The translations under genes were made by a program, and so were the position numbers. Shown here one piece after another: positions 870 to 24,177 of a stretch of 64,000 nt of DNA (position 1 is its first letter; each line of letters opens with the position of its first letter). The notes under the pieces were generated by a model. The model made no database searches. It was given only the letters and a program-made list of their open reading frames with translations, and was not told where the DNA came from. This DNA comes from an uncultured Rikenellaceae bacterium (GTDB lineage: Bacteria > Bacteroidota > Bacteroidia > Bacteroidales > Rikenellaceae): NCBI GenBank assembly GCA_944415565.1, contig CALYBQ010000013.1, positions 1 to 64,000 on the forward strand, in the 5' to 3' direction.

Positions 870-883
870 ATAACACCGATACC

Positions 884-2667: not shown

Positions 2668-2779
2668 TGTTAAGAAAATTATGTAGCAATATATTGTGAA
2701 ACAATGTGTTGCGTCTTACTTGTTAAGGTGAGTTATTCGCCTAAATGTTCATTATAAATCTTGCATATCTCTAAATTTG
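2668..2779 (+). promoter_or_regulatory. Promoter and shared two-box operator of the secretion operon
   Basis: TGTTAAGAAAATT begins at 2668 and TGTTAAGG at 2721, start-to-start 53 bp, with GTGTTGCGTCTTACT just before the second box. A -7 box TAAATTTG lies at 2772-2779, about 59 bases before the first gene. No TTTG sits 19-21 bases upstream of the -7 box, which suggests an activator is needed. The same two boxes with the same 53-bp spacing occur before both RHS operons. The rest of the 2388-2667 gap shows nothing I can identify. Confidence 0.75.
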
Positions 2780-2837
2780 TTCATAGAGATAACACACCGT
2801 TTTTACAAGTTATCCATACCCAAAACTTAATTGTTGA

Positions 2838-3464
2838 ATGATAAAACTCGATTCGGGGAATAAGATCTGCCGGGTTCTTGAGATTGTCGTTCTGCTCGCC
2901 GTTCTTGTGCTGGTTGTCGTATTCGCAGACCATGAATACTGGGCTTTGTTCCTATTGTTGCTGGTTAGTCTGGCAGCTCTGGTCTTTTTCGTTGAATATT
3001 GTAACCGACTTGCAGCAAAGGAGAGGAAGAGCCGGGCGGAACTTCAGGAGAGACGGCTTTTGCTGTTCCGCAAATTAGTAGATCATTCATATGAGCAGCA
3101 AGGCAATACCGCTGTTTTTTATAAGAAGTTCTGTGAAGAGATCAATATCCGAAACCTTCGAAAATATCAGCTTATCGACCGTGAGCTGAAAGTTCCGACA
3201 GGTAGTGTGGGGTTTGGGGAAAGCGGCAAGTTGTCTTCGGAAGATTACGAGTTTCTCCATCTGGCCCGCGCGGGCTTTACCAATCGGGAGTTGAGCATGA
3301 TCTTCGGTTTGACCAATTCCCAGTCTGTCTATGTCAAGCGGCATAGGATAAAGGCGAAACTCGGTACCGGGTCTGTTCCTGCCGTGATGGCAGAAGCGTT
3401 AAAAGCGAAAGAAGAGGTCAGGCAACGGGAGAAAGCTTCGGATTTGATAAATGTCGTGTCCTGA
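2838..3464 (+). CDS. Membrane-anchored HTH (LuxR-like) regulator, first gene of the secretion operon
   Basis: 208 residues. Two adjacent hydrophobic segments (about 11-30 and 33-53) should place it in the inner membrane with the rest in the cytoplasm. Residues about 132-180 form a LuxR/GerE-like helix-turn-helix: LSSEDYEFLHLARAGFTNRE followed by a recognition helix in SQSVYVKRHRIKAKL. Bacteroidetes carry similar membrane-bound HTH proteins with TPR sensors; this one lacks TPRs. It heads the T2SS-like operon, with the shared two-box promoter directly upstream. I infer, without proof, that it binds those boxes and thus controls this operon and the two RHS operons. Confidence 0.75.
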   Translation: MIKLDSGNKICRVLEIVVLLAVLVLVVVFADHEYWALFLLLLVSLAALVFFVEYCNRLAAKERKSRAELQERRLLLFRKLVDHSYEQQGNTAVFYKKFCEEINIRNLRKYQLIDRELKVPTGSVGFGESGKLSSEDYEFLHLARAGFTNRELSMIFGLTNSQSVYVKRHRIKAKLGTGSVPAVMAEALKAKEEVRQREKASDLINVVS

Positions 3465-3495
3465 AAGAATAGTGATTTTAAACCAACATACCGTT

Positions 3496-3906
3496 ATGAA
3501 AAAAGATACTAATGTCCGCTTAAAGGCCTTTTCGTTGCCCGAGATACTCGTTGTGCTCGTTATCGTTGGTATTCTGGTCCTTATAGCGTTACCGAACCTG
3601 ATGCCTTTGATCTCGAAAGCGAAGAGTACGGAGGCGCAGCAGCAGCTCGTCTTTTTGCATACTCTTCAGAAGAATAACTTTTACACCTACTCGCGTTACT
3701 CGGAGTCGTTGGACGAGCTTGGTTTCGAGCAGCAGCCATTGGTGACTGACGGCGGTACGGCTAACTACCTTATCGAGATTGTGGAGGCAGATGCCCGCGG
3801 TTTCAGGGCTACGGCTACTTCCGTTGTCGATTTCAACGGCGACGGTGTGTATAATGTCTGGGAGATCGACCAGGATAAGCAACTGAAAGAGACCGTCAAG
3901 GATTGA
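3496..3906 (+). CDS. gspG: Major pseudopilin, GspG-like
   Basis: 136 residues from the ATG at 3496, chosen because it gives a short prepilin leader; a start at 3451 would overlap the previous gene and lengthen the leader. The prepilin site is KA|FSLPEILVVLVIVGILVLIALP, with Glu5 of the mature protein, the class III signal cut by the neighbouring peptidase. The hydrophobic helix is followed by a small alpha/beta domain. Residues about 112-123, DFNGDGVYNVWE, match an EF-hand-like calcium loop, recalling the calcium site of GspG major pseudopilins though the motif itself is different. It would polymerise into the pseudopilus. Confidence 0.85.
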   Translation: MKKDTNVRLKAFSLPEILVVLVIVGILVLIALPNLMPLISKAKSTEAQQQLVFLHTLQKNNFYTYSRYSESLDELGFEQQPLVTDGGTANYLIEIVEADARGFRATATSVVDFNGDGVYNVWEIDQDKQLKETVKD

Positions 3907-3907
3907 T

Positions 3908-4387
3908 ATGGACATGGCCTGTTATGAACTGTTGCTGCTTGTGCCGTTGACGGTTATGACCGTCAGCGACTACCGTCACCGCGAGGTCGGCCTTATGTGG
4001 CTGGCGCTCCTTGCCGCGGGGAGTACCTCTGTGGCCTGGCTCCGCGGCGGCGCAGGCTACATGCTGCATAATGCGGCATTCAATCTGGCCCTGCTGCTCT
4101 ATCTGTTTTTCGGTGTCGTCCTGTACCTGCGGCTCCGTTACAGGAGATGGTGCAATCCGTTCAAAATACACCTGGGCTGGGGCGATATTATTTTTTTCGT
4201 ATCCGTCGCCCCGTTCTTCGGTTTGCGCGGTTTTCTGCTGCTGCTTCTTGCCTCGTGCCTTGCCGGCCTGGTGCTGTGGTTGGTTCAGCGGACTTGTGCT
4301 TCGGGCAGGCATACTACCGTTCCGCTGGTTTCTGCCGGCAGCGTGGTGTTCGGTACCTATTTGATCTATATAAATCTGCTGTCATGA
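3908..4387 (+). CDS. gspO: Prepilin peptidase (A24), catalytic domain only
   Basis: 159-residue polytopic inner-membrane aspartyl peptidase that should cut the leaders of the operon's pseudopilins. Both A24 aspartates are visible: D21 in VSDYRHREV and D93 in the GWGD motif. Length fits a stand-alone catalytic domain without the N-terminal cysteine-rich methyltransferase domain of classical PilD/GspO, so N-methylation of the pilins is not explained by this gene. It begins two bases after the gspG stop and its own stop overlaps the ATG of gspE. Confidence 0.85.
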   Translation: MDMACYELLLLVPLTVMTVSDYRHREVGLMWLALLAAGSTSVAWLRGGAGYMLHNAAFNLALLLYLFFGVVLYLRLRYRRWCNPFKIHLGWGDIIFFVSVAPFFGLRGFLLLLLASCLAGLVLWLVQRTCASGRHTTVPLVSAGSVVFGTYLIYINLLS

Positions 4388-5811
4388 CCATGCCTGCCCG
4401 CATACCTACGGAGGTGATCCAGTGCTTCACGCCGTCCCAGGCGTGGGAGTATATGCTCGTGCCCAAGAGTGTGGACGGCTCGGCGATGGAGTGTTACGGT
4501 GACGAGGATCGGGACTACTCCGAGCAATTGGTAGAACTACAGGTACTGTACGATATCCGGGCGAGTGTGTGCCCGGTGAGCGCCCAAACCCTTCAGAAGC
4601 TGCTCACTCAATATTACAGGGCCGAGGATGGGCGCGGCAACTCCCAAACTCGTTCCATAACCGAGATAGGTTCCGGGCAGGGTTTCCTGCGCGGGCTGAT
4701 CGACGAAGCGTTCGAGAGCTATGCGAGCGATATCCATATCGAGGCCTATGAGGAGCAGTGCCGCATACGCTTTAGGATCGACGGAAAGCTGATCGAACGT
4801 TACGTGGTGGCTAAGGCTAACTACGCCGCCCTTATCAATCAGATCAAGATACTCGCGAATCTGGATATTTCCGAGAAGCGGCTTCCGCAGGACGGGCGTA
4901 TCCTGTTCAATCAGGACGGCAACAAGTTCGATTTGCGTGTATCATCCCTGCCTACGATCTATGGGGAGAAGATCGTGCTCAGGCTTTTGACCAGACATAT
5001 CGAGTTGCTTGAACTTGAGAACCTCGGGTTCAATGAACGCCAGTTGTCGGACTATTGTTCTGCCATCGCTAAACCGCACGGTCTGGTTCTGATCTGCGGT
5101 CCTACGGGGTCGGGCAAAAGTACGACGCTCTACGCGACGCTTCGCCGGCTGAACGGGGAGACGGGTAATATCATGACGATAGAGGACCCGGTAGAGTATA
5201 CGCTCGAAGGCGTTAACCAAGTGCAGTTGAAAGAGGAGATAGGCTTGACCTTTACCAATGCCTTGCGTGCTTTCCTGCGCCAGGATCCCGACATCATCAT
5301 GCTCGGGGAGATCCGTGACGCCGATACGGCCCAGATGGCCATACGCAGTGCACTGACGGGCCACATGCTCTTCTCCACGATCCATACCAACAGTGCATGG
5401 GGCAGCGTGTCGCGACTGATGGACATGGGGATACATCCGTACCTTATTTCGGACACGCTTGTCATGTGCGTTGCCCAAAGGCTCGTTCGTAACCTGTGTC
5501 CCGATTGCCAGAAGGCGGAACCCGTGACGCCGGAGATCAGGGAATGCCTGGGCCGTGACCTTGCCGTTGAAACACACTATGTCCCGCATGGGTGCGAAAA
5601 GTGCTACTATACCGGGTATCGTGGGCGACGGGCGATATATGAGGTTATCTCTGTGGATCGGGAACTGGCCGCTGCGATCCGTGACAATGCTACCGATGTG
5701 GAGACCCATCTCAAATCCCGTGGGATCGTCACCTTGAAGCAGGCCGCTATAGATATGTTTACCGAGGGAGCGACCTCGTTCGCCGAGATACTGCCTATAA
5801 TAAACGCATGA
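4384..5811 (+). CDS. gspE: Secretion ATPase GspE/PilB family
   Basis: 475 residues from the ATG at 4384, which overlaps the upstream stop as ATGA; an upstream in-frame ATG at 4147 lies inside gspO and is rejected. Cytoplasmic hexameric ATPase that powers pseudopilus assembly. Seen: N2 domain start (SYASDIHIE, near 113), Walker A GPTGSGKS (about 239-246), Asp box around TIEDPVEYT, Walker B region IIMLGEIRD, His box TGHMLFSTIHTN, and the tetracysteine zinc site (CPDC and GCEKC). All catalytic elements are intact. The N1 region is short compared with PilB. Confidence 0.93.
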   Translation: MTMPARIPTEVIQCFTPSQAWEYMLVPKSVDGSAMECYGDEDRDYSEQLVELQVLYDIRASVCPVSAQTLQKLLTQYYRAEDGRGNSQTRSITEIGSGQGFLRGLIDEAFESYASDIHIEAYEEQCRIRFRIDGKLIERYVVAKANYAALINQIKILANLDISEKRLPQDGRILFNQDGNKFDLRVSSLPTIYGEKIVLRLLTRHIELLELENLGFNERQLSDYCSAIAKPHGLVLICGPTGSGKSTTLYATLRRLNGETGNIMTIEDPVEYTLEGVNQVQLKEEIGLTFTNALRAFLRQDPDIIMLGEIRDADTAQMAIRSALTGHMLFSTIHTNSAWGSVSRLMDMGIHPYLISDTLVMCVAQRLVRNLCPDCQKAEPVTPEIRECLGRDLAVETHYVPHGCEKCYYTGYRGRRAIYEVISVDRELAAAIRDNATDVETHLKSRGIVTLKQAAIDMFTEGATSFAEILPIINA

Positions 5812-7730
5812 AAAATAACGTGCTTATGAGATATTTATACATTGTATTGCTATTTATCGCTTCGTTGCAGGCGGTAGCGGCCCAGGATAGGGCGGCTTAC
5901 GACAGCGTCCGGTATGCCGGTATAGAGCGGAAGCTGCAACAGGTGGTCGAAGCTGACTCCACCTATCTCGAAGATGTGGATATTTCGGTGGGTAAGCTTC
6001 CGCTGTCGGATATGCTGCGTAATGTTGCCAAGATCGCGGCCGTGAACCTTACTGTGAAAGGGGCCGAGAATACGATGGTGACGTGCAACTTCTCGCGAGC
6101 CAAGATAACGGACCTGATCTTTTTCCTGTGCCGCGAATACGACCTGGATATAGACGTCGTGGGCAACATAGTGGCGATACGCCCAGCTGCTCCGATGCCG
6201 GATAAGCCTAAGATACCCTATGTATCTTATTCCCCGAAGGATAAGAGCGTCGATTACGACCTGAACGGGGACAAACTGATAGATGTTATCAAGAAGTTTG
6301 CGGATGAGGCCAAGATCAATATCGTCGCCCCGACGTCGATGTATTCTACTCTTGTTTCGGGTTATGTCAGTAAGATGCCACTCGATGAGGCTGTCTCGAC
6401 GCTTGCCTCGATCAACGGTATCGAGGCGGCTAAGGCGGAGAGGGGTGTTTGGGAGTTTTCGCCTGCGGTCTCCGCCGCATCTCAGGACGGCAGGGGCGGT
6501 GGAGCTTCGGCTCCGGTTTTTACCCGGCGTACTCAATTCGCTCCGAACCAGGTTATGGTCGACAGTATGGGGTTGGTTACGGTGCAGGTCGGGCGCGGGA
6601 ACATACAGGACATAGTTACGGAGCTCTGCGTCCAACAGGGTTTGAACTACTTCTTCCTCTCGCCGATGACCCAGCAAACGAGCGTCTATGTCCGAGGGGT
6701 TTCGTTCCAGACGATCCTGGGTGTGCTGTTCGCCGGAACTTCGTATAGCTATTACGAGGAGAGCGGCATCTATTTTTTCGGCGACGGTTCGAAAAGCAAG
6801 GGCATCTCGGGCGTTAAGGTCATACCCATGATTAACCGGTCGGTGAACAAGGTCGAGGAGCTGATCCCCGAGTCCTTGAAAACGGGAGTTCAGCTCAAGA
6901 CGTTCGTAGACCAGAACAGCATCATCGCTGCCGGCGACCACAGGCTGATAGGTCGTATCGAAACCTTTCTGCGGAGCATAGACGAACGAGTGCCTCTTGT
7001 CACGATCGAGGTCATCATCGCCGACGTCACCAAATCCAATATCATGGAGACCGGCATCGAGATGGGGCTTGGCGACCCTCCGGCTAAGACATCGGGGACT
7101 CTGTCGCCCGGTCTGTCGCTCAATATGAATGCCCAGACCGTGAACAACCTCATCAGCAGTTTCAACGGTTTCGGATCTATCAATCTCGGGCGCGTAACTC
7201 CCGATTTCTATATGAGCCTCCAGTTCTTGGAGGAGAACGGTACGATCACGCTCCATTCGACCCCGAAGCTGTCGACGCTGAACGGCCATGAGGCCAACCT
7301 GAAAAGCGGGCAGAAGCGCTACTATAAGGAGATCACCAATACGATAGTCGGCTCGAATAATCCTATTACCAACGAGAGCTACCAGTGGAAGAACATAGAG
7401 GCGAACCTGAGCGTCAAGATCACGCCGTTCGTTAGCAAGAACCGGGATATTACACTCGACATCGAAATCGAACAGAGTGAGTTCGTAGAAACTACTACCG
7501 ACGGGGAGCCTCCCGGAACGGCTACCCGCACGTTCAAGTCCCAGATCAGGGTGCAGAATGAGGAGATGGTGCTGCTGGGCGGCATCGACCGCAATTCACA
7601 TAACAAGACTGCCAGCGGCCTTCCGTTCATTGCCCGCGTACCTGTTCTTAAATGGTTATTCGGTAAATCGAAGAACAATAAGGTGGACCAGCGGCTCAAT
7701 GTCTTTATAAAACCGACATTGGTAGACTGA
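5808..7730 (+). CDS. gspD: Outer-membrane secretin, GspD/PilQ family
   Basis: 640 residues with a Sec signal peptide (hydrophobic LYIVLLFIASLQAVAA, cut near residue 25). A STN/N0-like domain follows (about 56-120), then N1-like modules, and a C-terminal secretin domain from about 390 (VPLVTIEVIIADV) to the end, finishing with the expected SGLPFIARVPVLKWLF and NVFIKPTLVD strands. It would form the outer-membrane gate of the system. Start overlaps the gspE stop by four bases, and its TGA overlaps the next ATG. No lipobox is present on the secretin itself, so a pilotin or another route would be needed for insertion. Confidence 0.92.
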   Translation: MKNNVLMRYLYIVLLFIASLQAVAAQDRAAYDSVRYAGIERKLQQVVEADSTYLEDVDISVGKLPLSDMLRNVAKIAAVNLTVKGAENTMVTCNFSRAKITDLIFFLCREYDLDIDVVGNIVAIRPAAPMPDKPKIPYVSYSPKDKSVDYDLNGDKLIDVIKKFADEAKINIVAPTSMYSTLVSGYVSKMPLDEAVSTLASINGIEAAKAERGVWEFSPAVSAASQDGRGGGASAPVFTRRTQFAPNQVMVDSMGLVTVQVGRGNIQDIVTELCVQQGLNYFFLSPMTQQTSVYVRGVSFQTILGVLFAGTSYSYYEESGIYFFGDGSKSKGISGVKVIPMINRSVNKVEELIPESLKTGVQLKTFVDQNSIIAAGDHRLIGRIETFLRSIDERVPLVTIEVIIADVTKSNIMETGIEMGLGDPPAKTSGTLSPGLSLNMNAQTVNNLISSFNGFGSINLGRVTPDFYMSLQFLEENGTITLHSTPKLSTLNGHEANLKSGQKRYYKEITNTIVGSNNPITNESYQWKNIEANLSVKITPFVSKNRDITLDIEIEQSEFVETTTDGEPPGTATRTFKSQIRVQNEEMVLLGGIDRNSHNKTASGLPFIARVPVLKWLFGKSKNNKVDQRLNVFIKPTLVD

Positions 7731-8722
7731 TGGCGCTGCTGGGTAAAATATTGGACAGGGTGAATGTCCTTGTTGTCGATTACCGGGATGGGGAGCATTA
7801 TTCGGCCACGCTGATGCGCTACCGCCGGAAGGACGGCAAGGCGGAATGTGAGTTTACACGTACGGCCGGAGATGCGGACGATCTGGCTGGCGACCGGAAA
7901 AACTATCCGGTGGTTGTGGTTCTGACCGGTTACGGGGTTATATGTAAGGAGGCAGATAAGACGCCTGACATAGTCCGGAAGGTTACTGCCCCCGATAGCG
8001 GGTTCGTGTATAGCGAGGAGGGTGGACGAATATGTTTTGTCCGCCGCGCACAGGTTTCGGCTGTACTGGACAAGGTCGCGGGTAGTAAGAGCCATGCCGT
8101 CGGCGTGGAGTGCTCCGACTTGGCGGGGAAGGACGACAGCATGCCGGCGGCAGCGGCCGACCGCTATTTCTCTGATATGGGTGTGGGGACATTGTTGCGT
8201 CCTACGCAGAAGGGGTCTGTCTTGTGCCGCATGCTTGCTGTCAGGGCCCGTCTTTATGTGTTGTGTGCTCTTTTGCTCCTTGCTGGTGTAAATGCCGCAT
8301 GGAAACCGTCGGTGAGGACGGAGTATGAGGGTGCGCGGGCCGAGTTGGAACTGTTGAAGGAGCGTCAGGGGGCAGTATCGACCGCATCGCGTCAAAAGGC
8401 CGAGGCTCTGGAGATGTTCAAAAGCGATATGCCGCTGCCCGTCTCTTTGCTTTGCGACCGTGCAGCCATGGCGTTACCCGGCGATATGGGGCTTACGGCT
8501 ATGGCTGTGTGCCCGCCTGTAAAGAGGATAGAGAACGGGAAAATCCCCGAGTTCAGAGACGGTCTGGTCACGATAGACGGTCACGCTCTAAGGTCGTCGG
8601 ACGTACTTGCGTATGTAACCGGACTGGAAGAGGTGCTTACTCAGGCTTCGGTAAATCTCGCTACGCTCGAATACGATAAGGATAACGGACGGTACGTGTT
8701 TGCGATAAATGTCGGCTTATGA
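7730..8722 (+). CDS. GspL/PilN-like assembly platform protein
   Basis: 330 residues: a cytoplasmic N-terminal part of about 165 residues without an obvious actin-like ATP motif, one transmembrane helix near 171-190 (LYVLCALLLLAGV), a coiled-coil stretch after it (EYEGARAELELLKERQ), and a periplasmic alpha/beta domain at the C-terminus. This is the layout of GspL and PilM/PilN fusions, and its place between secretin and the GspM-like gene fits. Sequence identity to GspL is not evident by eye, so the call rests on topology and operon position. Confidence 0.6.
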   Translation: MALLGKILDRVNVLVVDYRDGEHYSATLMRYRRKDGKAECEFTRTAGDADDLAGDRKNYPVVVVLTGYGVICKEADKTPDIVRKVTAPDSGFVYSEEGGRICFVRRAQVSAVLDKVAGSKSHAVGVECSDLAGKDDSMPAAAADRYFSDMGVGTLLRPTQKGSVLCRMLAVRARLYVLCALLLLAGVNAAWKPSVRTEYEGARAELELLKERQGAVSTASRQKAEALEMFKSDMPLPVSLLCDRAAMALPGDMGLTAMAVCPPVKRIENGKIPEFRDGLVTIDGHALRSSDVLAYVTGLEEVLTQASVNLATLEYDKDNGRYVFAINVGL

Positions 8723-9225
8723 AAGGTAATAGGAATTACAGGGGCTTGATAAGCCTTGCCGGGCTGCTGATACTGGCTCCGGTCATAACTTACAGGCTGA
8801 CGCTGTCCGATACCGTAGGGATGTGGAGCTCTGCCAGAAAGCTGCGTGGGGAGATCGAGAACAGGCTGGCCGCAGCTCCGGCGGAGGGGCAGGTCGTTGC
8901 GGTGGTTTTCGACGGGAAGGATGTGATCCAGAACGGAGAGCTGATAACCGAGTTGGAGCGCTTGGGAGCACTGAAGGGGCTGTCTGTCGAGAGGTATGTA
9001 CCCACTACGGCAGAGGAGAGCAGAGGACTGCATATCCGAACGGCAGAGATAGGGTTGAACGGCCCGTATGAACAGGTGCTTCGGGCGATACGGGTAATAG
9101 AGGAGAGGATGCCGGCGTGTAAGGTCTCTTCGGTTACGTTCAGGGGGGTGAGGGCACGACAGACGGGAGCGGTGCATTTGCAGACTACGATCATAGTACA
9201 ACAATTAACCGATAAACAGATATGA
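8719..9225 (+). CDS. GspM/PilO-like inner-membrane protein
   Basis: 168 residues: short cytoplasmic start, one membrane helix (about 9-25, GLISLAGLLILAPVITYRL), a helical linker and a periplasmic ferredoxin-like domain. GspM and PilO have just this shape and pair with GspL or PilN. The start overlaps the previous stop by four bases, so the two are translationally coupled. Assignment is by architecture and position; there is no diagnostic motif. Confidence 0.6.
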   Translation: MKGNRNYRGLISLAGLLILAPVITYRLTLSDTVGMWSSARKLRGEIENRLAAAPAEGQVVAVVFDGKDVIQNGELITELERLGALKGLSVERYVPTTAEESRGLHIRTAEIGLNGPYEQVLRAIRVIEERMPACKVSSVTFRGVRARQTGAVHLQTTIIVQQLTDKQI

Positions 9226-9659
9226 GAAAGATTATTGTTTTGTTCGCTTTATCCTCTCTTTTGCTCTCGTGCGAGGACATATTCGAGGAAGACCTTTCGC
9301 ACGAGGAGGTTCGTATCATTGCTCCCGCGGATGGGGTCAGCGTAGATGCGGGTACGGTTATGTTCCTGTGGGAGGAGGTTCCCGGAGCGACGTCGTACCG
9401 TATCACGGTGGTGTCGCCCGAGTTCGAGGATGCCGGGATCGTCGTGGGCGACGAATTGCTTAGGAACGACTCTGTGACCCACCACCGCAGCTATGCCTGC
9501 GACCTGGCCCCGGGGGATTACCAGTGGAGTATTTCGGCCCTTAATTCGGCATATTCGACACCGCGCAGGATTTCGAGCCTGCATGTGAACGATACTCCCG
9601 AGGAGCCTGAAACAGGAGGGGAGGATGAGGAAACGCAGGAGATCGGACGCCGGCCATGA
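9222..9659 (+). CDS. Lipoprotein with fibronectin-like domain inside the secretion operon
   Basis: 145 residues. The signal peptide ends in a lipobox (LLLSC, Cys17). The mature part holds one beta-sandwich of fibronectin/SusE type: IIAPADGVSVDAGTVMFLWE, then VPGATSYRITV and DYQWSISALN, followed by an acidic low-complexity tail rich in Glu and Thr. It overlaps both neighbours by four bases, so it is a true member of the operon. By position it could act as the pilotin that helps the secretin into the outer membrane, or as a surface factor; the fold differs from known pilotins. Confidence 0.7.
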   Translation: MRKIIVLFALSSLLLSCEDIFEEDLSHEEVRIIAPADGVSVDAGTVMFLWEEVPGATSYRITVVSPEFEDAGIVVGDELLRNDSVTHHRSYACDLAPGDYQWSISALNSAYSTPRRISSLHVNDTPEEPETGGEDEETQEIGRRP

Positions 9660-10126
9660 AATCGAAGTGGACGACATATATCCTGCTTTTTGTCGCCTGT
9701 GCCGTGTGGGGAGGTATAGCGTGGCGTCTTCTGTCGCCCAAACCGGGAGCGACGGCCGAAGCCGTACGCCGCGAAACGAAACCTGCACCGGTAGAGAAGT
9801 CCGATACGCTCTGCTTGTCTTATCCCGACCCTTTTCTCGGTAAGGAGTTGAAAAGGGCCGTGCCGCCGGTGGTGAAGAAGAACGTTACCGTCTCGAATAC
9901 TGCTGCCGGAGCAAAACCCGTGAAGCCGCCGGCGACGCATAAGGTAAGGTTTGTCGGCTGCATCAGTAAGGAGGGTGTGCCTTATTGCCTGGCCGAGATA
10001 GATGGCAGGTTCGTGTCTTTGGCTGAAGGGGAGAGTGAGGATGATTACAAGCTGGTGAAGATATACGGTGATTCGGTGCTGTTCGCAAAGGATAAAGATC
10101 GTTTCACTGTCGCGCTGGCGCAGTAA
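9656..10126 (+). CDS. GspC/PilP-like inner-membrane connector
   Basis: 156 residues with an N-terminal anchor (TYILLFVACAVWGGIAWRLL), a Pro/Lys-rich linker, and a C-terminal beta domain (about 98-155: HKVRFVGCISKEGVPYCLAE, then SEDDYKLVKIYGDSVLF). This is the plan of the GspC homology region and of PilP, which link the inner-membrane platform to the secretin N0 domain. The pattern of a short strand, a YCLAEIDG turn and a V/K-rich closing pair supports this. Start overlaps the lipoprotein stop as ATGA. Confidence 0.65.
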   Translation: MKSKWTTYILLFVACAVWGGIAWRLLSPKPGATAEAVRRETKPAPVEKSDTLCLSYPDPFLGKELKRAVPPVVKKNVTVSNTAAGAKPVKPPATHKVRFVGCISKEGVPYCLAEIDGRFVSLAEGESEDDYKLVKIYGDSVLFAKDKDRFTVALAQ

Positions 10127-10139
10127 AAAGTATGGCGGC

Positions 10140-11351: not shown

Positions 11352-11713
11352 TCGCATGGAACGGTGTCCGTCTGCCGGGCAGCACGCTGCTCGAGACCAT
11401 TGTGGCATCGGTGATATTCCTGTCGGTGTTCGCGGTGTCGCTGGAAACGATGTCGCGGATGGTCGCCTCGCCGCGGGATACGGGTATTATGGTGGAGGTC
11501 GATCACCGGCTGAATGAGTGCTTCCGGAAATACTCCTCTCCGCTATATGCGGCCGGAGAGTATGAGCAGGAATATCCGTGGGGTACGATCCATATCGCGT
11601 TATCGCGGTATAAGGAGTACGACAGGCTGCGGCATATATATCTGCGGGCCGTGGTCGAAGACAGCCGCATGACGATCGGGTTCGATCATGTTATTATGCT
11701 TGACGATGAGTAG
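11339..11713 (+). CDS. GspI-like minor pseudopilin
   Basis: 124 residues from the ATG at 11339, which overlaps the end of the GspK-like gene. Prepilin site PG|STLLETIVASVIFLSVF with Glu5; the small domain after the helix matches the size of GspI/PilV. It would join K and J in the pseudopilus tip complex. Longer in-frame starts lie inside the previous gene and would bury the leader. Confidence 0.75.
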   Translation: MGKLIAWNGVRLPGSTLLETIVASVIFLSVFAVSLETMSRMVASPRDTGIMVEVDHRLNECFRKYSSPLYAAGEYEQEYPWGTIHIALSRYKEYDRLRHIYLRAVVEDSRMTIGFDHVIMLDDE

Positions 11714-13275: not shown

Positions 13276-13370
13276 GTTGCCTGTTGGAGGGAAATCCCTG
13301 ATTTTTGCCATTCACAATGTGTAATCTCACTACATGATCTATTATGGTTGATGTTGTAATGTGTTGATTG

Positions 13371-13510
13371 TCAGTGTGCTGCCTTTTTGCGTTTTTGTGT
13401 TAAGAAAATTGTTGGTTAACGTTCAGATAATCAGTGTGATGCGTTCTGCTTGTTAAGGTCTGTTTTGTGGCCATTCCATGAAAATATACACTGTCTCTAA
13501 TATAAATTTG
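13371..13510 (+). promoter_or_regulatory. Promoter and shared two-box operator of RHS operon 1
   Basis: TGTTAAGAAAATT at 13398 and TTGTTAAGGT with TGTTAAG at 13451 lie 53 bp apart, as before the secretion operon. TCAGTGTGNTG occurs at 13371 and again at 13431, 60 bp apart. The -7 box TAAATTTG is at 13503-13510, 52 bp after the second box; no spaced TTTG -33 is visible. The block from about 13365 to 13465 is nearly identical to 24032-24132. Confidence 0.75.
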
Positions 13511-16500: not shown

Positions 16501-16783
16501 GCATGTCGATCACTTTGAGGTTACGGATGATATGACTGATAAAATGTATTCTTTTCATATGGAGGATGCAGATCATTGGTTCGATGAGGTCCGGGTTATG
16601 CCTTTAGGGGCAAAGATGAAAACCTATGCCTTTAATCCTTTGTTCGGTGTGTGTTCCGAGATTGATGTAAACGGTCGAGGTTCACATCGGCGATACGATA
16701 GTCAGGGACGCTTAGTGAAAATTATGAATAATGACTGGGATGTTCTTAAAGAGTACGAATACAACATTGTGACTAAAAATTAA
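13547..16783 (+). CDS. Secreted YD-repeat/RHS cap-like protein 1
   Basis: 1078 residues with a Sec signal peptide (cut near VNA-QG, residue 26). The N-terminal half follows the SpvB/TcdB-like plan of secreted YD-repeat proteins: DKYTGRLMLTIPLYTI, SLPISLNYNASGHRV and EAGLGWDLSYS. Many Tyr/Asp strand repeats follow. Near the end comes a beta-sandwich-like module (SYWVSKDFGETWEE, then WFDEVRVMP) and a few YD repeats (RRYDSQGRLVKI). There is no RHS core and no toxin domain; these are in the next gene, 11 bases downstream. I infer that the two proteins pair like TcB and TcC. Visibly AT-richer than the secretion operon. Confidence 0.8.
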   Translation: MKRLLRRWLIACVLLTGLSISSVNAQGRGIDNLSGKLDPGTLSSLSNSNVTPSVDKYTGRLMLTIPLYTITTNDGFSLPISLNYNASGHRVADYSSEAGLGWDLSYSCKVTRIRMGSFMDNDIIWGYKWMDDYIDLISNKSAQGRINDFKYSSKEQMDTEADIYQFEIPGASGFFFRAADGKYYTIPYSPIKIKTGVQSRPEGSTDPAFIYFMLTDANGYTYHFGEVPEASVLGEYRAKSRPKPGGSGTEKPYLPDHETPMIWLPVRITNNGANIISFTYESDPNQLIGSYNMRYQHLDTDEPWNQWDVGKDLYLYSPKRISKITWGDDKNSVEFNYKSVKADDRDMKLYSSIDVNLHSAHANRKTFSFILSHSTFQSGRPKLDKIETEYDNDLSTLVSFGYEEEVNLPKRSGYDYDYWGYYNGANNNGYEPEHITYDASGNEIYVSGASREPNFQYTVANILKKVIYPTGGFLQFQYEPHTATAVVKGQYVDNLVFGGVRIKAVQQYSDAYHLVSEKRYSYTSEGSTNSCGIGYKYPDKYAKQEVGSYKGGWYSVFQNYHYKLTDYNGAAVVYPRVTEHYSNGSYSVTEYYSYEDFSDLPAKPFEGARYNTNCGEYYNLEKNDMRVDLEGAYPPTPFFWARGMEKSVTSYSADGEQVSKVTNQYELLGAPKATLTGLIFDARYPEETDYSDEVSYYWGIGARIGTYKWISQAIALTKTIQEQGPYNLRTEISYEYDTITTLPIKTVTVNANNDRIEERVKYNFDYADIQNNDTSAFASAMLFYKNQHIFQPVEQYVIKNGKVVSGEVLTFTENWAIRGETPSYEGAKYVPHKKFQLFASEPISDYQETYYDANGFHMDPRYEEVEAYESYDGHNRVLTVTRPYGYKKSYIYEHNQIVAEVENAAHYIVEWTPDHLANKRHANQVYYSGFEILPYDFYDILQTDKAKSGEIVGLYSFFLNFDDFANGTYVISYWVSKDFGETWEEHVDHFEVTDDMTDKMYSFHMEDADHWFDEVRVMPLGAKMKTYAFNPLFGVCSEIDVNGRGSHRRYDSQGRLVKIMNNDWDVLKEYEYNIVTKN

Positions 16784-16794
16784 AACTGATCGTC

Positions 16795-19700
16795 ATGAAA
16801 AAGATAATATTGATCCTTAGTTTGTTGCTTTGTTTATACGGGAATAAGGCGTATGGAGTTTGGGATGATGACCTTGGGGAGGTCACAGAGATTACGATTC
16901 CACATGTAAATAATATATATAGAGATGGCGGCGCTTCTATGCATGATACAAAAATTGATGTATTAGATTCCGTAGTCATGGTCAGATTAGGTTTTGGGGC
17001 TATTGATAAGGAACCAGATCCTACTGTCGTTGAAAGAGATATTAAAAATGCTTTAGATGAGGCTGGAACATGGGTTAGGGCAGGTTCTGTGACGGTTGTT
17101 CAATACAAAAATTCTGCTTCTGGGTACATATTATTAGCGTTATCCAGAGAAGGACGGTCAGGTGTAGTATGTTTAAAAGCCGCAGGTGTAGGTAATAAGG
17201 TTTTTTTGGGGCCTATCCCGTTTGAAACGCTACAGTTAGAGCAAAAATGTTTAATCTCTGAAAGTTGGATCAATGAACTCGAGCTTCATTCTCCCACATT
17301 GATTGAGGGAAGGCGGTACACATTAAGGAGTATTAACGAATTTGGAGAGGTTAGTGAAGAGACATTTCAATACAGTCCTGTTGAAGGTTATCCTAAAACA
17401 TATATCAAAACGCTTTATGAGCCGCATATAGGGGATAATTATCAGTTGATAATGCATTCCTATATTCCTGATGTCGGTGAGATGGAGTCGAATATCTGTT
17501 ATGCAGGAGTGGATTGGCCAAACTTGTCATTGGTAGAGCTTGATCCTCCCGGCGACTATAATCTAAATAGTTCCGGCCTTGATACCTTAAAACGTAGATA
17601 TGTTCAAGAGGATGGTTCGGAATTTACACCGGCCCAATTGGCTAGGATTGAGTCAATACTGTACGAATTCAATAACCAGGGTGAAGATACGTATAGTGAA
17701 TTTATGCAAATGAGTGGATCGTATGATCCGGATTCAAGGGTTTACACTGTTAATATTTTCGGTTTATTTCCCAATTACTATGACGATATTCAAGGCTTTT
17801 GTCTGTGGTTTAATAAGGACGGTTATACATGGACTGGATTCTCAGGTAACGAACCATTTAACGAAGAAGTTCGTATTTGTAAGGTAGAGGGTATTGAGTT
17901 GACAGAGCCTTATGTCCGTCAGGCATTAAAGGTTTCGAATATTCAGCCAGGTCTTCAGTATCAGCTAAATCGCAGCGGAGGGTTTGCTCGTATTGTAAGA
18001 CCTAAGATAGGGGAAACGGATCTTATTTTCGATAATTTGTTTGCTGAAGGGACTTATACTGTACAAGTTATTAGTCCTAGCTACAGATATGTAAATATGG
18101 ATGGAAGTGTTTTTGTCGATTTTGGGGTACAACCGTTTGAAATAATAGGTGAAGAATTGACAGAACCTTATAAAAGAAGTATAATCCGATTATCTGGAGC
18201 TCAAACAGGTGTAACATATAAACTGTATCGAGACGGGGAATTTGTGGACGAAAAGATGGCTTGGTCAGACGAAGACGAGATATATTTTGATGATCTTACA
18301 TTAAGTGGAATTTATACCATAAAGGGAGTTGTAGGAGAGTCTGAAGCCGATATGTTGGGTAGTTATACAATAGGGTTCGATATTATTCCATTTAAAGTTC
18401 AGGGCGATCTGGTAAACGAATCGACCGGAACAGTAACTGTTTTAGGTTCTCAAAGCACGGTAACATATCAGTTGTATTGCAATGGAGATTATCTTAAGGG
18501 AATCAAGGCTACTTCTGATTCGGGTAACATAGTATTCGATAATCTTACACGAAATGGAATTTACACAGTTAAGGGCGTACAAGGGGTAAATGAACAAGAT
18601 ATGATAGGAAGCTATCAATTGTCCATATTGAATGTATCAAAAGATAAGAATTACGTTTTGGTCCATTCTTATAATGGAGATCAAACCAGAACGTCTGATA
18701 TTTCTTATTTAGACGAGTTTGAACGAGTATTGCAAACCATCAGTATCAATGCTGTGCCTCAGACATTTGATAAAGATATTATTTCCTATACTGTGTATGA
18801 TGTAATGGGACGCTCGGATTCTATCTCATTTATGCCGTATGTGGGATCAGGTGCAGGAAAATATCATGGAACGGTCTCCAGCGAGCAATGGGCTTATTAT
18901 CAATCGGCTTTCCCCGGAGATATAGATGCCGATTATGCATATTCTATGAAAGAATACGATAATTCTCCATTAGGCATTCTTATGAAACAAAGTGGCGTAG
19001 GCTATAATAACAGTATGGCTCAACATCCTGTTCAGTACAATTATCGCTTAAACAATGCAGCAGATCAGGTCAAGAAGTTTATTTTCAATGCCGAAACGAA
19101 AACTGTCGGATATAGTGAATTTTATGCTGCTAATACCTTGACGGTGAGTGAAACGGCTACACTTAATTTGTCTGAAAGTGAGGCGGTTGCTTCGTGTGAG
19201 TTCTCTGATGCTGCGGGGCAACTTGTAGCGTCTCGGGTTAAGTATGGAAATGGAGAGATACAAACGACCTATTATGTCTATGATGAGTTGGGACGACAAC
19301 GTTATATTATTCCAGCTATTCAGGAAGCAATGATGACAGTTAATTCAAATTATGATTATGACGATTTATCTGATTATTGCTATTATAATGATGAGTATGA
19401 CAAATATGGCCATGTCATTAAACAATATGTACCCGGAGCGGATTATACCCTGAGCCTTTATGATAAGAGAGGGCGTTTGGTAATGAGTCAATCAGGTAAT
19501 TTAAGGGGGGATGGAACTGCCGAGAATCAAAGGTGGGCGTTTACGAAATATGATGAGCGTGATAGGCCTGTTATGACTGGGATTTTGACAGGAGGAACAT
19601 ATCAGGAACATTATGATGCGATCAATTCCATGACCATATTTGGGGAATATATGGGTGGAAATTTTCACCGATATACCAATCAATGCTATCCTACAAATGT

Positions 19701-22293
19701 ATCAGAGGAAGATGTGTTGACTGTGTCATATTATGATGATTATAAGTGGAAGGTAGATGATACATATAGTTTCTCAGAGGCTGATGCATTAGGTCAAGAG
19801 CGTATGCACTCACATATTTTTTCGCTACAGACTGGGGCAAAGACAAAGGTATTGGGAATCGATGAAGATGTTTGGTTGACTTCTGCGATATATTATGATG
19901 AAAAATATCGGAAAATACAAATTGTCAGTGATCTGTATCCTTCGGGTAAGGAAATCGTATCGAATAAACACAATTGGGGTGGAGATGTTGTACAGACTAA
20001 GGTAAAGCAGACAACTGATGCCGGAACTTACGAGTACAACAAATGGTTCGATATAGATAATCGTGGCAGGCTTTTAGCCGTACGGCAGCAGATTGTCGGT
20101 GATCCGCGTGGAGAGATTACCATCGCGTCCTACGAATATGACGATATGGGAGTGATGATTGCCAAGTCTGTTCATGACGGTCTTGATACTACACGGTATG
20201 AGCATACACTACCAGGCGTACAAATTGCTTCTACGTCTAATGATTTTTCTTACCGTCTTGGGTTCGACCGAGGAGTAATTGAAGGGCAGCCTGTACGGCA
20301 TGACGGTCTGCTAAGTCATGTTATATGGGAGAGTTCGCAGACCGGCACCAAAGGATATACTTTAAGTTATGATAAAAGAGGACAAATGACTGCAGCAGAC
20401 CTGCTTGTGCAAAACAATGGAGTCTGGACACCCACATCTAGTTTCGCTGAAAAAGGTATTTCATATGACAATAACGGTAATATCCTTTCAGTCCAACGTA
20501 CGGATGTAACTGGAAACATGATGCATGATATCTCATATAATTACGACGGCAACGTGCTGACCTCGCTCTCTATGGGTGACGGAAGCACCACGGATGCTTT
20601 TGTTTATGATGCGAATGGTAATATGACATATGACGGTAATACTGGCGTGGGAATCGAATATAACGAGTTGAATTTACCCGTGCGAATATTTGACGGAACA
20701 AACGAGATTCGTTATATTTACAACGCAGTTGGAGAGAAACTCGCCTCTGTAACCGGAAGTTCCTTGACTTACTACCGCAGTGTAATGGTTTACACCAAAT
20801 CGGACAACGGGCCTCAACAACTCGTACATATGTTCCAACCAGAAGGTATAGTTCGATATAACGCAGGGAGTACAGAAGATCCATATACGTATTCGTATTT
20901 CAAGACTGACCATTTGGGCAGCACGAGAATGGTTTTAGCGGCCGTTTGGGATGCAGACCAGAATGATTACACTATGAATGTCGAACAGGCTACCGATTAC
21001 TATCCTTTCGGCCTGGCGCACGAGTTGAATGACCTAGGCATTAATAAGTATCTTTTTAGCGGCAAGGAGCTTCAGGATGTAGCAATTGGCTCAATGGGTC
21101 TGCTAGGGATGTATGACTTCGGATCACGCTACTACAACCCGTACCTGGGCCGTTGGTTCGGTATCGACCCGGCATTGCAGATGACTAATCCGTATATTTA
21201 CTGCGGCAACAATCCAATGACGTATGTAGATCCCGACGGTGAATGGTTCTTTACTATATTAAGTGGCATTATTCCTGGGTTACAACCATTTTTGCCAGCG
21301 GCCATACAACTCGATATGTCTTGGATGAAAGGAGGATTTCAATCCGCGGCGGCCGGTGGTTCATTCTGGCAAGGTGCAGGCAAAGGATTAGCCAGTGGAG
21401 CAGCAGGGGTAGGGGCATCATTCCTTACAGCAGGGGTTGGCAATTTATTCGGTCATGGTCTTGGCAGCTGGGGTACAGAATTGTTGCGTGCTGGCGCCCA
21501 CGGCTTAATAGGTGGGGGCATGAGTACCTTAAACGGTAATAACTTTTGGCAAGGCTTTGGAACAAATGCTATATCTTCGTTTGCAGGGAGTGGTTTGTCT
21601 GCTTTGGGGATGTCTAATAAGTTCTTGCCTTATACAATGGGTGGAATAGGAGCATTATCAGCCTACGGTTTTGGTGGAGACCCACTAAATGGTTTTTGGC
21701 AAGGATACGGCATTGGCCGATGGAATCATACAGGCTCAGGTACGGATGACGATCCATATGTGTTGGATGAGGCGGTAGTAGAAGTACAAGGATATTATGT
21801 GTTGAAAGATATGGCTCCTTACAATGATTTGATTGGTAATATTGGAGTTGGACTGGCAAATGATAGAGGAAATTATGGGTTTACTAAAAATTGGCGGCTC
21901 AGGTACTATTCCGTTACCCCGACAGGTCATGTATTCAGAGGTAATCAATATATGAAGGTCTATAGTGTTGCCAAGGCAGGTAAGATGCTAGGTAAAGCCT
22001 CAGGATGGGTAGGAATTGGATTAGGTGCTTATGAAATTGGAACTACATATCAGATGGAAGGAGAATTTGGTTATAATTCCCAACTTGCGACCGTAGAACT
22101 TGCAGGAGGTAGCGCAGGTGGATGGGCAGGAGCTTATCTCGGAGCTAAAGCAGGGGCTTTGGCTGGAACCCATGTTTATCCTGGTCCCGGAACATTAATC
22201 GGAGGTATTGTTGGCGGAGTAATCGGTGGATTTGCCGGTAGTTGGGGAGGATCTGCAGCCGGAGGAGCCGTTTATAAAGGAGTCGTAAAATAG
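16795..22293 (+). CDS. Secreted RHS-core protein with glycine-zipper C-terminal toxin-like domain
   Basis: 1832 residues. Sec signal (cut near residue 22, before VWDDDLGEV). N-terminal 600 residues carry three related beta-sandwich repeats with LTEPY motifs; about 620-750 is the DUF6443-like segment; then YD/RHS repeats lead to the RHS core (DHLGSTRMVL near 1372; SRYYNPYLGRWFGIDPA; DPDG at 1480-1483). The variable C-terminus of about 350 residues is Gly/Ala-rich with hydrophobic zipper stretches (GGSAGGWAGAYLGAKAGA, IGGIVGGVIGGFAG), suggesting membrane insertion. No nuclease or peptidase motif was seen. The immunity candidate follows six bases later. Confidence 0.85.
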   Translation: MKKIILILSLLLCLYGNKAYGVWDDDLGEVTEITIPHVNNIYRDGGASMHDTKIDVLDSVVMVRLGFGAIDKEPDPTVVERDIKNALDEAGTWVRAGSVTVVQYKNSASGYILLALSREGRSGVVCLKAAGVGNKVFLGPIPFETLQLEQKCLISESWINELELHSPTLIEGRRYTLRSINEFGEVSEETFQYSPVEGYPKTYIKTLYEPHIGDNYQLIMHSYIPDVGEMESNICYAGVDWPNLSLVELDPPGDYNLNSSGLDTLKRRYVQEDGSEFTPAQLARIESILYEFNNQGEDTYSEFMQMSGSYDPDSRVYTVNIFGLFPNYYDDIQGFCLWFNKDGYTWTGFSGNEPFNEEVRICKVEGIELTEPYVRQALKVSNIQPGLQYQLNRSGGFARIVRPKIGETDLIFDNLFAEGTYTVQVISPSYRYVNMDGSVFVDFGVQPFEIIGEELTEPYKRSIIRLSGAQTGVTYKLYRDGEFVDEKMAWSDEDEIYFDDLTLSGIYTIKGVVGESEADMLGSYTIGFDIIPFKVQGDLVNESTGTVTVLGSQSTVTYQLYCNGDYLKGIKATSDSGNIVFDNLTRNGIYTVKGVQGVNEQDMIGSYQLSILNVSKDKNYVLVHSYNGDQTRTSDISYLDEFERVLQTISINAVPQTFDKDIISYTVYDVMGRSDSISFMPYVGSGAGKYHGTVSSEQWAYYQSAFPGDIDADYAYSMKEYDNSPLGILMKQSGVGYNNSMAQHPVQYNYRLNNAADQVKKFIFNAETKTVGYSEFYAANTLTVSETATLNLSESEAVASCEFSDAAGQLVASRVKYGNGEIQTTYYVYDELGRQRYIIPAIQEAMMTVNSNYDYDDLSDYCYYNDEYDKYGHVIKQYVPGADYTLSLYDKRGRLVMSQSGNLRGDGTAENQRWAFTKYDERDRPVMTGILTGGTYQEHYDAINSMTIFGEYMGGNFHRYTNQCYPTNVSEEDVLTVSYYDDYKWKVDDTYSFSEADALGQERMHSHIFSLQTGAKTKVLGIDEDVWLTSAIYYDEKYRKIQIVSDLYPSGKEIVSNKHNWGGDVVQTKVKQTTDAGTYEYNKWFDIDNRGRLLAVRQQIVGDPRGEITIASYEYDDMGVMIAKSVHDGLDTTRYEHTLPGVQIASTSNDFSYRLGFDRGVIEGQPVRHDGLLSHVIWESSQTGTKGYTLSYDKRGQMTAADLLVQNNGVWTPTSSFAEKGISYDNNGNILSVQRTDVTGNMMHDISYNYDGNVLTSLSMGDGSTTDAFVYDANGNMTYDGNTGVGIEYNELNLPVRIFDGTNEIRYIYNAVGEKLASVTGSSLTYYRSVMVYTKSDNGPQQLVHMFQPEGIVRYNAGSTEDPYTYSYFKTDHLGSTRMVLAAVWDADQNDYTMNVEQATDYYPFGLAHELNDLGINKYLFSGKELQDVAIGSMGLLGMYDFGSRYYNPYLGRWFGIDPALQMTNPYIYCGNNPMTYVDPDGEWFFTILSGIIPGLQPFLPAAIQLDMSWMKGGFQSAAAGGSFWQGAGKGLASGAAGVGASFLTAGVGNLFGHGLGSWGTELLRAGAHGLIGGGMSTLNGNNFWQGFGTNAISSFAGSGLSALGMSNKFLPYTMGGIGALSAYGFGGDPLNGFWQGYGIGRWNHTGSGTDDDPYVLDEAVVEVQGYYVLKDMAPYNDLIGNIGVGLANDRGNYGFTKNWRLRYYSVTPTGHVFRGNQYMKVYSVAKAGKMLGKASGWVGIGLGAYEIGTTYQMEGEFGYNSQLATVELAGGSAGGWAGAYLGAKAGALAGTHVYPGPGTLIGGIVGGVIGGFAGSWGGSAAGGAVYKGVVK

Positions 22294-22299
22294 AAAAGT

Positions 22300-22833
22300 A
22301 TGGAAAGATTTTGGAATATAATCCATTATTTTATGTATAAAGCGGATTATAAGTTGCATATGTTATACGGTAAAATAGATCCTTTCAGTTTGTTACTAAA
22401 ACTGTTATATCGTATTCCCGCATTTAAAAGATATTCGGAAAAAAGAGGAGCTACGCTCAGAGTCATCGATGATGGTGTCGATAAGGTTTTTAAAAATCCA
22501 TCTTATGGTTTGAGTGTAACGTTTGCTGGGATATATATTGTTATTTTTCCGATGTTATTTTTTATAGGGTTGCATAATATCATTTCAGTATTAACGAACA
22601 CTTTATCTCCGCAATATGTACAGTTATTTTCTATTTGCAGTATTTTTTATTTCGGTATTCCATTGCTTGTAAGTCACTTATTTATTTTTCGACATGATAA
22701 ATATTTAAAATATTTTAAGGAGTTTGACCGCAAGCCAAAACAATGGCATGTGAAATATGGACGAATTAGTTTAGCGGTATGTCTAATACCATTCGTCGTT
22801 CTAATTCTGAGTTTTGTTTTGGGTTTGAAATAG
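22300..22833 (+). CDS. Polytopic membrane protein, candidate immunity to RHS toxin 1
   Basis: 177 residues with three clear membrane helices (about 70-95, 107-131 and 156-176) after a basic cytoplasmic region; no Sec signal, no enzyme motif. It starts six bases after the stop of the RHS-core gene and ends at a strong terminator, so it is the last gene of that operon. Inner-membrane immunity proteins are the rule for pore-forming toxins, which fits the glycine-zipper toxin end upstream. Function is inferred from position and topology only. Confidence 0.6.
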   Translation: MERFWNIIHYFMYKADYKLHMLYGKIDPFSLLLKLLYRIPAFKRYSEKRGATLRVIDDGVDKVFKNPSYGLSVTFAGIYIVIFPMLFFIGLHNIISVLTNTLSPQYVQLFSICSIFYFGIPLLVSHLFIFRHDKYLKYFKEFDRKPKQWHVKYGRISLAVCLIPFVVLILSFVLGLK

Positions 22834-22850
22834 CTGCTTAGTATAGGTGG

Positions 22851-22885: not shown

Positions 22886-22928
22886 TTATCTTCAACATAT
22901 TACATCATTGTATCAATTCAATTAGATG

Positions 22929-23054: not shown

Positions 23055-23087
23055 GGGAATTCAAACTTCCGGGCAATAGTTGAATTT

Positions 23088-23261
23088 ATGAAAGTTATTG
23101 TTCTAGTTTTTTTTATCGTAAATGCTGTAGCACATTTAGCATTTTTTTTTAAATCAGATAGTGATACTCCATTTAGAGGGAACGATTTGTTGTGGGGGGT
23201 AGTTTCTGTTTTGGGCGTCATATTTGTGATTATTGATTTTTTTGTCCCTTTTATTGAATGA
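23088..23261 (+). CDS. Small two-helix membrane protein
   Basis: 57 residues from the ATG at 23088 (an ATG at 23052 in the same frame adds 12 residues but overlaps the remnant on the other strand). Two hydrophobic helices (VIVLVFFIVNAVAHLAFFF and LLWGVVSVLGVIFVIIDFF) flank a short polar loop. It lies just beyond the terminator of RHS operon 1 and could be a leftover second immunity gene, as orphan immunity genes often accumulate downstream of RHS toxins. No other evidence supports this. Confidence 0.4.
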   Translation: MKVIVLVFFIVNAVAHLAFFFKSDSDTPFRGNDLLWGVVSVLGVIFVIIDFFVPFIE

Positions 23262-23458
23262 CCATAATAAAGTAATTAAGCCATTATTTGTGCATTTTGG
23301 CAGGTAGGGATTTATATCAATTTTATAAATTCTCTCGTTCCACGCTTGTTTTATGTTTGCAAACTGCTATATGTAATTAGCTTTTCGATAATATCCGTAG
23401 TATTTGTAGCATTGCTATTTTTGGTATAGTTGATTTGACGCATTATATAGTATGAACT

Positions 23459-23488
23459 CCATCCCGTTGGCCTAAGTTGACGGGATGG
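23459..23488. terminator. Hairpin in the spacer between RHS operons
   Basis: CCATCCCGT and ACGGGATGG form a 9-bp perfect stem with a 12-base loop and a short T-rich tail on the plus strand. No clear gene ends just before it, so it may be the terminator of a lost gene. The surrounding stretch 23262-23600 is AT-rich and shows no gene. Confidence 0.4.
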
Positions 23489-23627
23489 TTTGTATTTGAA
23501 TAGTATTTCGGATTCATTATTCTATAAATTGGGCTAAATGTGAATCGCTATTTTTCGTTTCATTTTGTTGATACACTCTATTTTGTGGTATTATATGGCT
23601 CTTTATACTTCCCTTTGGGTAAAATGT

Positions 23628-23877
23628 ATACAGCAACTGTCAACAACTATTGCAGGCGTATCGAATGCAATAAAAGAGCGTTATGCCGCTCTATCTGATA
23701 ATGATGGTTTGCCGCGAAGCCGGCGATATGACAGGAGCCCGTTCTGTGGCATCGGAGATCGTCGGAAAACAAGCAAAGGTCAACACGCCAGAGGTTGACA
23801 GAATCAGGCAAACAGCAATGGATCTGTTGGGAGATGTCGATGATTATGGGGAGTCTTTAATTCACGATACTCATTGA
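23628..23877 (+). pseudogene. Frameshifted gene fragment of unknown family
   Basis: One frame gives IAGVSNAIKERYAALSDNDG up to about 23706; a second frame continues with CREAGDMTGARSVASEIVG and NTPEVDRIRQTAMDLLGD to the stop at 23875-23877. Read across a frameshift near 23705 the two pieces form one plausible helical domain, with composition closer to the host than to the RHS genes. No start codon for the joined product is visible. Family unknown. Confidence 0.4.
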
Positions 23878-24037
23878 TCGGTACCCTGACAGATATGTTA
23901 TTTCTGTCAGCTGTTCTTGCTGCATGTCGGTAAATGTCGTGCTTATCGGCAGGTGATACTTGTCTTTTTTCTCTGGTTTTTACCTCCAATTCTACTTCGC
24001 TACTTGTTGTAGTGTGTGTTTGTAATGCCATTGATTA

Positions 24038-24177
24038 TCAGTGTGCTGCCTTTTTGCGTTTTTGTGTTAAGAAAATTGTTAGCTAATGTTCGGATAATCA
24101 GTGTGATACGTTCTGTTTGTTAAGGTCTGTTTTCATGTCAAAGTAGAGGTTGATATGCTTAGTCTAATATAATTTTG
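24038..24177 (+). promoter_or_regulatory. Promoter and shared two-box operator of RHS operon 2
   Basis: TGTTAAGAAAATT at 24065 and TGTTAAGG at 24118, 53 bp apart. TCAGTGTGNT occurs at 24038 and 24098, 60 bp apart. -7 box TAATTTTG at 24170-24177, 52 bp after the second box. A TTG at 24150-24152 is only 17 bases away, shorter than the usual 19-21. Spacing and sequence are the same as before RHS operon 1 and the secretion operon. Confidence 0.75.

Follow-up and report, generated by a model that had tools for sequence, protein, structure and literature searches.

What turns on the secretion genes and the RHS genes that lie next to each other in an uncultured Rikenellaceae bacterium, and are they turned on together? 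We studied a window of 64,000 nucleotides (positions 1 to 64,000 of contig CALYBQ010000013.1, GenBank assembly GCA_944415565.1). Profile matches identify an operon for a machine that resembles the type II secretion system (T2SS; 3451..13275), and two RHS operons follow it (13547..22833 and 24223..32966). The same pair of short boxes precedes each of the three. (These operons and the window's promoter elements described below are all on the forward strand.) We propose, with a probability of roughly 60%, that the boxes are the operator of one dedicated activator for all three operons, and that this activator is p1, which the secretion operon encodes in its first gene (2838..3464, forward strand).

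We began with the boxes themselves, which can be read directly from the sequence. Box 1 (TGTTAAGAAAATT) occupies 2668..2680 before the secretion operon, 13398..13410 before RHS operon 1, and 24065..24077 before RHS operon 2. Box 2 (TGTTAAGGT) begins at 2721, 13451, and 24118. With the bases before it, box 2 can be extended to TGCG-N7-TGTTAAGGT in the secretion promoter (2710..2729) and in the RHS1 promoter (13440..13459); the RHS2 promoter has TACG-N7-TGTTAAGGT (24107..24126). The TGTTAAG cores of the two boxes are exactly 53 bp apart in all three promoters. An initial annotation of this DNA had reported this spacing, and it is correct for the cores, but the longer word TTGTTAAGG begins one base earlier than box 2, at 2720, 13450, and 24117.

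Downstream of the boxes, we found a likely core promoter. According to excerpts of PMC7366714, the consensus for the primary sigma factor of Bacteroidota is TAnnTTTG at -7 and TTTG at -33, and the -7/-33 motif lies ahead of 81% of primary starts in Bacteroides thetaiotaomicron; the same excerpts state that no -33 motif was identified in Flavobacterium. In each of the three promoters, the stretch that begins 60 bp ahead of box 1 and ends at the start codon has a single TAnnTTTG: TAAATTTG at 2772..2779 (secretion), TAAATTTG at 13503..13510 (RHS1), and TAATTTTG at 24170..24177 (RHS2). These predicted -7 elements begin 51, 52, and 52 bp past the start of box 2, and 66, 44, and 53 bp before the start codon, respectively. 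Unlike the consensus promoter, the window's promoters have no TTTG near -33, and the two boxes with their fixed spacing lie upstream instead. More precisely, TTTG is absent from the 32 bp preceding each of five -7 elements (the three in the window and two from a relative, G034, that is discussed below). There is a partial TTG 20 bp ahead of the -7 start in the RHS2 promoter and 11 bp ahead of it in the secretion promoter. The distances to the -7 box and the lack of a well-spaced -33 TTTG had both been noted in the initial annotation, and both held up.

How similar are the three upstream regions? The two RHS copies are identical at 97 of 108 positions over the element (13363..13470 and 24030..24137), match poorly over the next 30 bp or so, and match again around the -7 box. 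Over the 61 positions from box to box, the secretion copy is the same as RHS1 at 42 positions and as RHS2 at 41. What it has in common with them is the boxes, a TGTG-x-TGCG block just 5' of box 2, and scattered bases. This agrees with the earlier description of about 100 bp of similarity between the RHS copies and of a secretion match limited to the boxes and some flanking bases. (Directly upstream, each box of the RHS promoters also has a copy of another direct repeat, TCAGTGTG(C/A)TGC or a variant close to it, at 13371 and 13431 and at the equivalent positions of RHS2. Its copies are 60 bp apart, so it is out of step with the 53-bp spacing of the boxes.)

To ask whether the match could be due to chance, we shuffled the secretion upstream region alone, preserving its dinucleotides. 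The best 61-bp three-way match has 40 identical positions, and 5,000 shuffles gave a mean of 28.0 (standard deviation 1.4) and a maximum of 36. A TGTTAAG pair exactly 53 bp apart arose in just 1 of 20,000 shuffles. The shared 13-mer is weaker evidence on its own, because shared words of at least 13 bases arose in 5 of 5,000 shuffles.

If the pair were a common sequence feature, it should turn up at many unrelated loci. In the source genome, a search for TGTTAAG-N46-TGTTAAG with up to one mismatch returned these three sites and nothing else, all with no mismatches (the reversed-pattern control had one match). The genome assembly (1,913,587 bases in 18 contigs) is 79.9% complete, and the missing fifth or so of the genome could hold more sites. 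A BLAST-type search with a 116-bp RHS1 element found itself and the RHS2 copy (E = 5e-39); there were four further matches, two to parts of the secretion copy and two to other places, all with E of 0.19 or worse. The source genome's three sites were also the sole matches in a scan of 393 genomes from the order with up to two mismatches (G034 is not among the genomes listed; the control matched in 2 genomes) and in an earlier scan of 200 genomes with a stricter pattern. We then scanned 268 genomes from the family with up to three mismatches and a spacing of 53 only. This yielded the source's three sites, one site in G034 (on its RHS side, with one mismatch), and one match with three mismatches in each of G208 and G162. 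We treat the last two as chance matches, as the reversed control also matches in 5 genomes. Viral contigs had no matches to the motif. In genome_contigs (84,980 species), the exact pattern is present in six stretches of 3.4-8 kb, two from Bacteroidetes metagenome-assembled genomes and four from other phyla, and none of these stretches has a match to the window's T2SS, RHS, or p1 proteins.

The relative G034, which belongs to another genus of the same family, has the same arrangement. We compared upstream regions within each of seven relatives (G166, G127, G134, G073, G034, G003, and G004), and G034 was the only one with a clear signal between T2SS and RHS upstream regions (z = 5.8; because its two operons are transcribed outward from a single intergenic region, this region is partly being compared with its own reverse complement). 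A pair of p1 genes in G166, p1a and p1b, gave z = 37, but that match covers the p1 leader plus coding sequence. All other pairs in the seven relatives were below z = 4; the highest were 3.8 (RHS/p1a in G166), 3.5 (RHS/RHS in G127), and 3.3 (T2SS/RHS in G003). The intergenic region of G034 holds two copies of the form GATAAGAA...GATAAG(G/A), with spacings of 53 and 54. On the RHS side, CGATAAGAATTTT (L032:14179) is followed 53 bp later by TGATAAGGT (14232) and 51 bp further on by TTATTTTG. On the T2SS side, TGATAAGAATTCT (14078) is followed by TGATAAGAT (14024; 54 bp) and then, 51 bp on, by TAATTTTA, and the start codon of the pilin is 37 bp beyond. Both -7 octamers are one-mismatch forms, and both lie 51 bp after box 2. 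The RHS copy also has a TGCG ahead of box 2, and its distance to the box equals that in the window.

Once we had seen G034, we drew up a broader pattern, GWTAAGAANNNT-N39-41-TGWTAAGR, and searched 20 whole genomes with it. All five matches are at T2SS or RHS operons: they are the three promoters of the window and the two of G034. (The reversed control had none. As the pattern was drawn up after G034 was seen, this is a test of specificity, not a discovery.) Together with the absence of the pair from the rest of the source genome, these matches support the earlier proposal of one activator and a single regulon. A scan of 25 relative loci for direct repeats tied to TAnnTTTG found two perfect 8-mer pairs, both at a distance of 54; among the matches listed, one is from the G034 region. 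A looser search, for G(A/T)TAA repeats 52-54 apart, gave 13 pairs. Two are those of G034; of the other 11, three have a -7-like sequence, but we set all 11 aside, as they are without the AAGAA/AAGG context.

We then considered what might bind the boxes. The candidate, p1, has 208 amino acids. Predictions place two membrane helices near its N-terminus and a LuxR/NarL-like helix-turn-helix at the C-terminus (around residues 132-176). The match to GerE (PF00196) scores 13.9 bits, under the Pfam cut-off of 23.5, and we found no receiver or ligand-binding domain in p1 and no match to it in a sequence search of the PDB. Hydropathy gives two segments in the source p1 and one or two in the three relatives that were computed; judging from the flanking charges, the C-terminal part is predicted to be on the cytoplasmic side. 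A profile of the p1 family has 12 strong matches in 11 of the 268 family genomes, and all 12 adjoin T2SS or RHS genes. Seven of the 12 were not among the profile's seeds. (One p1 relative is labelled as uncultured Alistipes. Two metagenomic relatives of p1 are P0002, at 90%, and P0003, at 43%.) The profile also matches the C-terminal part of regulators of about 550-700 amino acids in many genomes of the family, such as L098:2182-3915. As a separate observation, the p1 leaders of G073 and G166 have a common inverted repeat, CTGTTTATCCT...AACAG(A/G)TA(A/G)ACAG, right before the start codon (L036:1080-1152; L089/L090), and the G073 leader RNA folds better than shuffles (z = -2.7). This repeat may reflect control of the regulator at the RNA level.

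If p1 is the activator, then we imagine the following mechanism. p1 would bind each box, and because the boxes are about five helical turns apart, two bound units would face the same side of the DNA. Judging from the -7 box, these units would be near -60 and -112. A position near -60 is that of a class I-like activator site, and from there the proximal unit would assist the primary sigma factor of Bacteroidota at promoters with a -7 but no good -33. An activator on one face of the DNA fits with direct repeats that are five turns apart, the nearer of which lies about 52 bp ahead of the start of the -7 element. The circuit would be self-amplifying, because p1's own gene is among those behind the boxes. 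Overall, we read the element as a dedicated, likely self-activating operator module. The missing -33 fits with dependence on an activator, but does not prove it, as the excerpts of PMC7366714 report that Flavobacterium also is without an identified -33 motif.

Several observations weigh against this reading. First, this form of the motif is present in just 2 of the 11 genomes with p1, and it is not general for T2SS/RHS islands: the other lineages that we searched lack it. (The initial annotation had suggested looking for the pair before T2SS-like and RHS operons in other genomes; this succeeded in another genus, but not in the other lineages searched.) Second, the p1 of G034 is only about 31% identical to the source p1. 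Third, the p1 frames of G034 and G004 start without an evident membrane segment. Finally, the sole perfect TAnnTTTG on the RHS side of G034 sits upstream of the boxes. It follows that either regulator and operator sequence have diverged in parallel or something other than p1 binds the boxes.

These points bring us to the best of the alternatives, which is that the boxes are a shared operator, but that the binder is an unlinked one-component regulator, a response regulator, or a repressor, while p1 does something else, such as sensing the machine. Consistent with this, p1 and the motif do not co-vary: 9 of the 11 p1 genomes are without this motif form in the sequence that was searched (G254 was covered by the family-wide scan only). 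However, the gene that directly follows one of the three elements is that of p1, the strong relatives of p1 sit in T2SS/RHS islands, and both of the genomes with the motif have p1 in the island. Also, a promiscuous regulator should have other sites, yet we found only three. We consider another binder possible but somewhat unlikely.

Another explanation is that a promoter cassette was duplicated or gene-converted, so that RHS2 was copied from RHS1, the secretion promoter is a partly decayed third copy, and the spacing reflects descent rather than function. In its favor, the near-identity of the two RHS cores has fairly sharp edges, and parts of the RHS B genes match as well (66-72% DNA identity). 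But the A genes that directly follow have no DNA match at E = 1e-3, despite a promoter core that is 90% identical, and the identical positions of the secretion copy cluster in the boxes and the TGCG block. Furthermore, G034 retains the order of the boxes, the spacing, and the distance to the -7 box amid otherwise different sequence, which points to selection. Descent alone therefore seems quite unlikely to us. It is highly improbable that the element is a recombination site, the end of an invertible promoter, or an RNA element: invertible promoters do occur in Bacteroidales (according to excerpts of published work), but the boxes repeat in direct rather than inverted orientation, the predicted -7 is downstream of them, the single-stranded DNA of the RHS1 element folds no better than shuffles (z = 0.58), and no Rfam family is over threshold in positions 1-34000 of the window.

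To return to p1 as the activator, how does it compare to known regulators? CadC, like ToxR and TcpP, is an inner-membrane activator, and regulators of this type start with an OmpR-type winged helix and usually have a sensor domain in the periplasm. p1 has no N-terminal winged helix; instead, a membrane hairpin is predicted at its N-terminus, with almost nothing in the periplasm, and the LuxR/NarL-like helix-turn-helix at its C-terminus. Excerpts of PMC8546550 describe TcpP and ToxR as inner-membrane regulators whose cytoplasmic DNA-binding domain activates promoters, and this arrangement is also predicted for p1. The LuxR/NarL (GerE) regulators DosR, RcsB, and TraR have a C-terminal helix-turn-helix, and the fold predicted for that of p1 is similar, although p1 scores below the Pfam cut-off, and they differ from p1 in that we found no receiver or ligand-binding domain in it. 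The longer regulators in the family share the C-terminal part, but the one that we examined has N-terminal tetratricopeptide repeats, while p1 has just the membrane part and the helix-turn-helix. One-component activators with operators are known in kind; what would be unusual here is the build of p1 and its set of targets. A literature search aimed at the combination of motif, T2SS, and RHS found no account of this motif (as the initial annotation had supposed), and none of p1 or of RHS in combination with a T2SS from Bacteroidota; the search was largely outside subscription journals. More speculatively, and we regard this as rather doubtful, p1 could be the founding member of a novel class of minimal LuxR-type activators that are tethered to the membrane. 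From inside the inner membrane, they would sense the state of assembly or export of the machine and, via a rigid 53-bp two-box operator, license expression of RHS toxins only if the machine is in place.

The secretion operon encodes a major pilin (3451-3906), a prepilin peptidase (3908-4387), a GspE-like ATPase (4147-5811, with a true start that is probably later), a secretin (5808-7730), further subunits, and a GspF-like protein (12175-13275). These match T2SSE (E = 7e-126), Secretin (5e-37), T2SSF (4e-46), and N_methyl (2e-4), and the match to Peptidase_A24 (1e-4) is just below the cut-off (23.2 vs. 26.5 bits). We call the machine T2SS-like because the NCBIfam equivalog cut-offs are not reached for GspE (477.6 of 630 bits), GspD (127.5 of 351), GspF (223 of 424), or GspG (29 of 89). 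For comparison, Cytophaga hutchinsonii has a type II secretion system that is tied to cellulose use, according to excerpts of PMC5553014. Both systems have GspD, GspE, GspF, and GspG-like genes, but those of the window neighbor two-gene RHS operons.

RHS operon 1 encodes an A protein (13547-16783), an RHS protein with DUF6443 and the RHS core (16795-22293), and a small C protein (22300-22833). RHS operon 2 has the same order: an A protein (24223-27723), an RHS protein with DUF6443 (27744-32498), and a small C protein (32514-32966). Neither small protein has a match in Pfam, and the C-terminal pieces of the RHS proteins have no Pfam match up to E = 1. By eye, the small C proteins look membrane-like and lipoprotein-like, and they are possibly immunity proteins.

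The secretin is present in 18 of 200 family genomes (including the source) and in 1 of the remaining 68. RHS genes are in the fetched stretch of 16 of the 20 T2SS loci from relatives, and the other four are short contigs (11.0, 9.0, 8.7, and 5.9 kb). From this conserved neighborhood, we infer that the RHS proteins are the cargo of the T2SS-like machine. In the relatives, the RHS genes are often directly behind the GspF-like gene or divergent from the T2SS operon, so different layouts repeatedly allow the machine and the RHS genes to be expressed jointly. The operons of the window are separate, and the shared two-box element would provide the joint expression.

Some other features of these loci are worth recording. 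The major pilin is 71-84% identical to those of relatives, vs. 23-67% for the other subunits (in local alignments), which suggests that its sequence is constrained by a shared surface. Two genomes, G057 (L037 and L038) and G254 (L121 and L122), each have the T2SS locus twice, and the secretins of the two copies score equally; the RHS neighbors differ between the two copies in G057. At the start of the contig and window (1-1138), there is an integrase-like gene (113-835, in which just a SAM-like domain was found) and a DUF7688 gene; this could be the edge of a mobile island. An AbiH-like protein (33416-34027) is encoded soon after RHS operon 2 and matches the Pfam profile only from position 119 to 257 of 260, leaving the early part unmatched.

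To our knowledge, RHS proteins in Bacteroidota are often without a known export route, and few operators are known in this lineage. A regulon in which a T2SS-like machine is linked to RHS operons of two genes, and for which there is a candidate regulator and operator, offers a handle on which machine exports the RHS proteins, and when. The regulon would be defined by its sequence, and it adds a small family of island-linked regulators (p1). If p1 does act through the boxes, then the machine and its likely cargo would be switched on together by a dedicated protein, probably from the first gene of the machine's own cluster.

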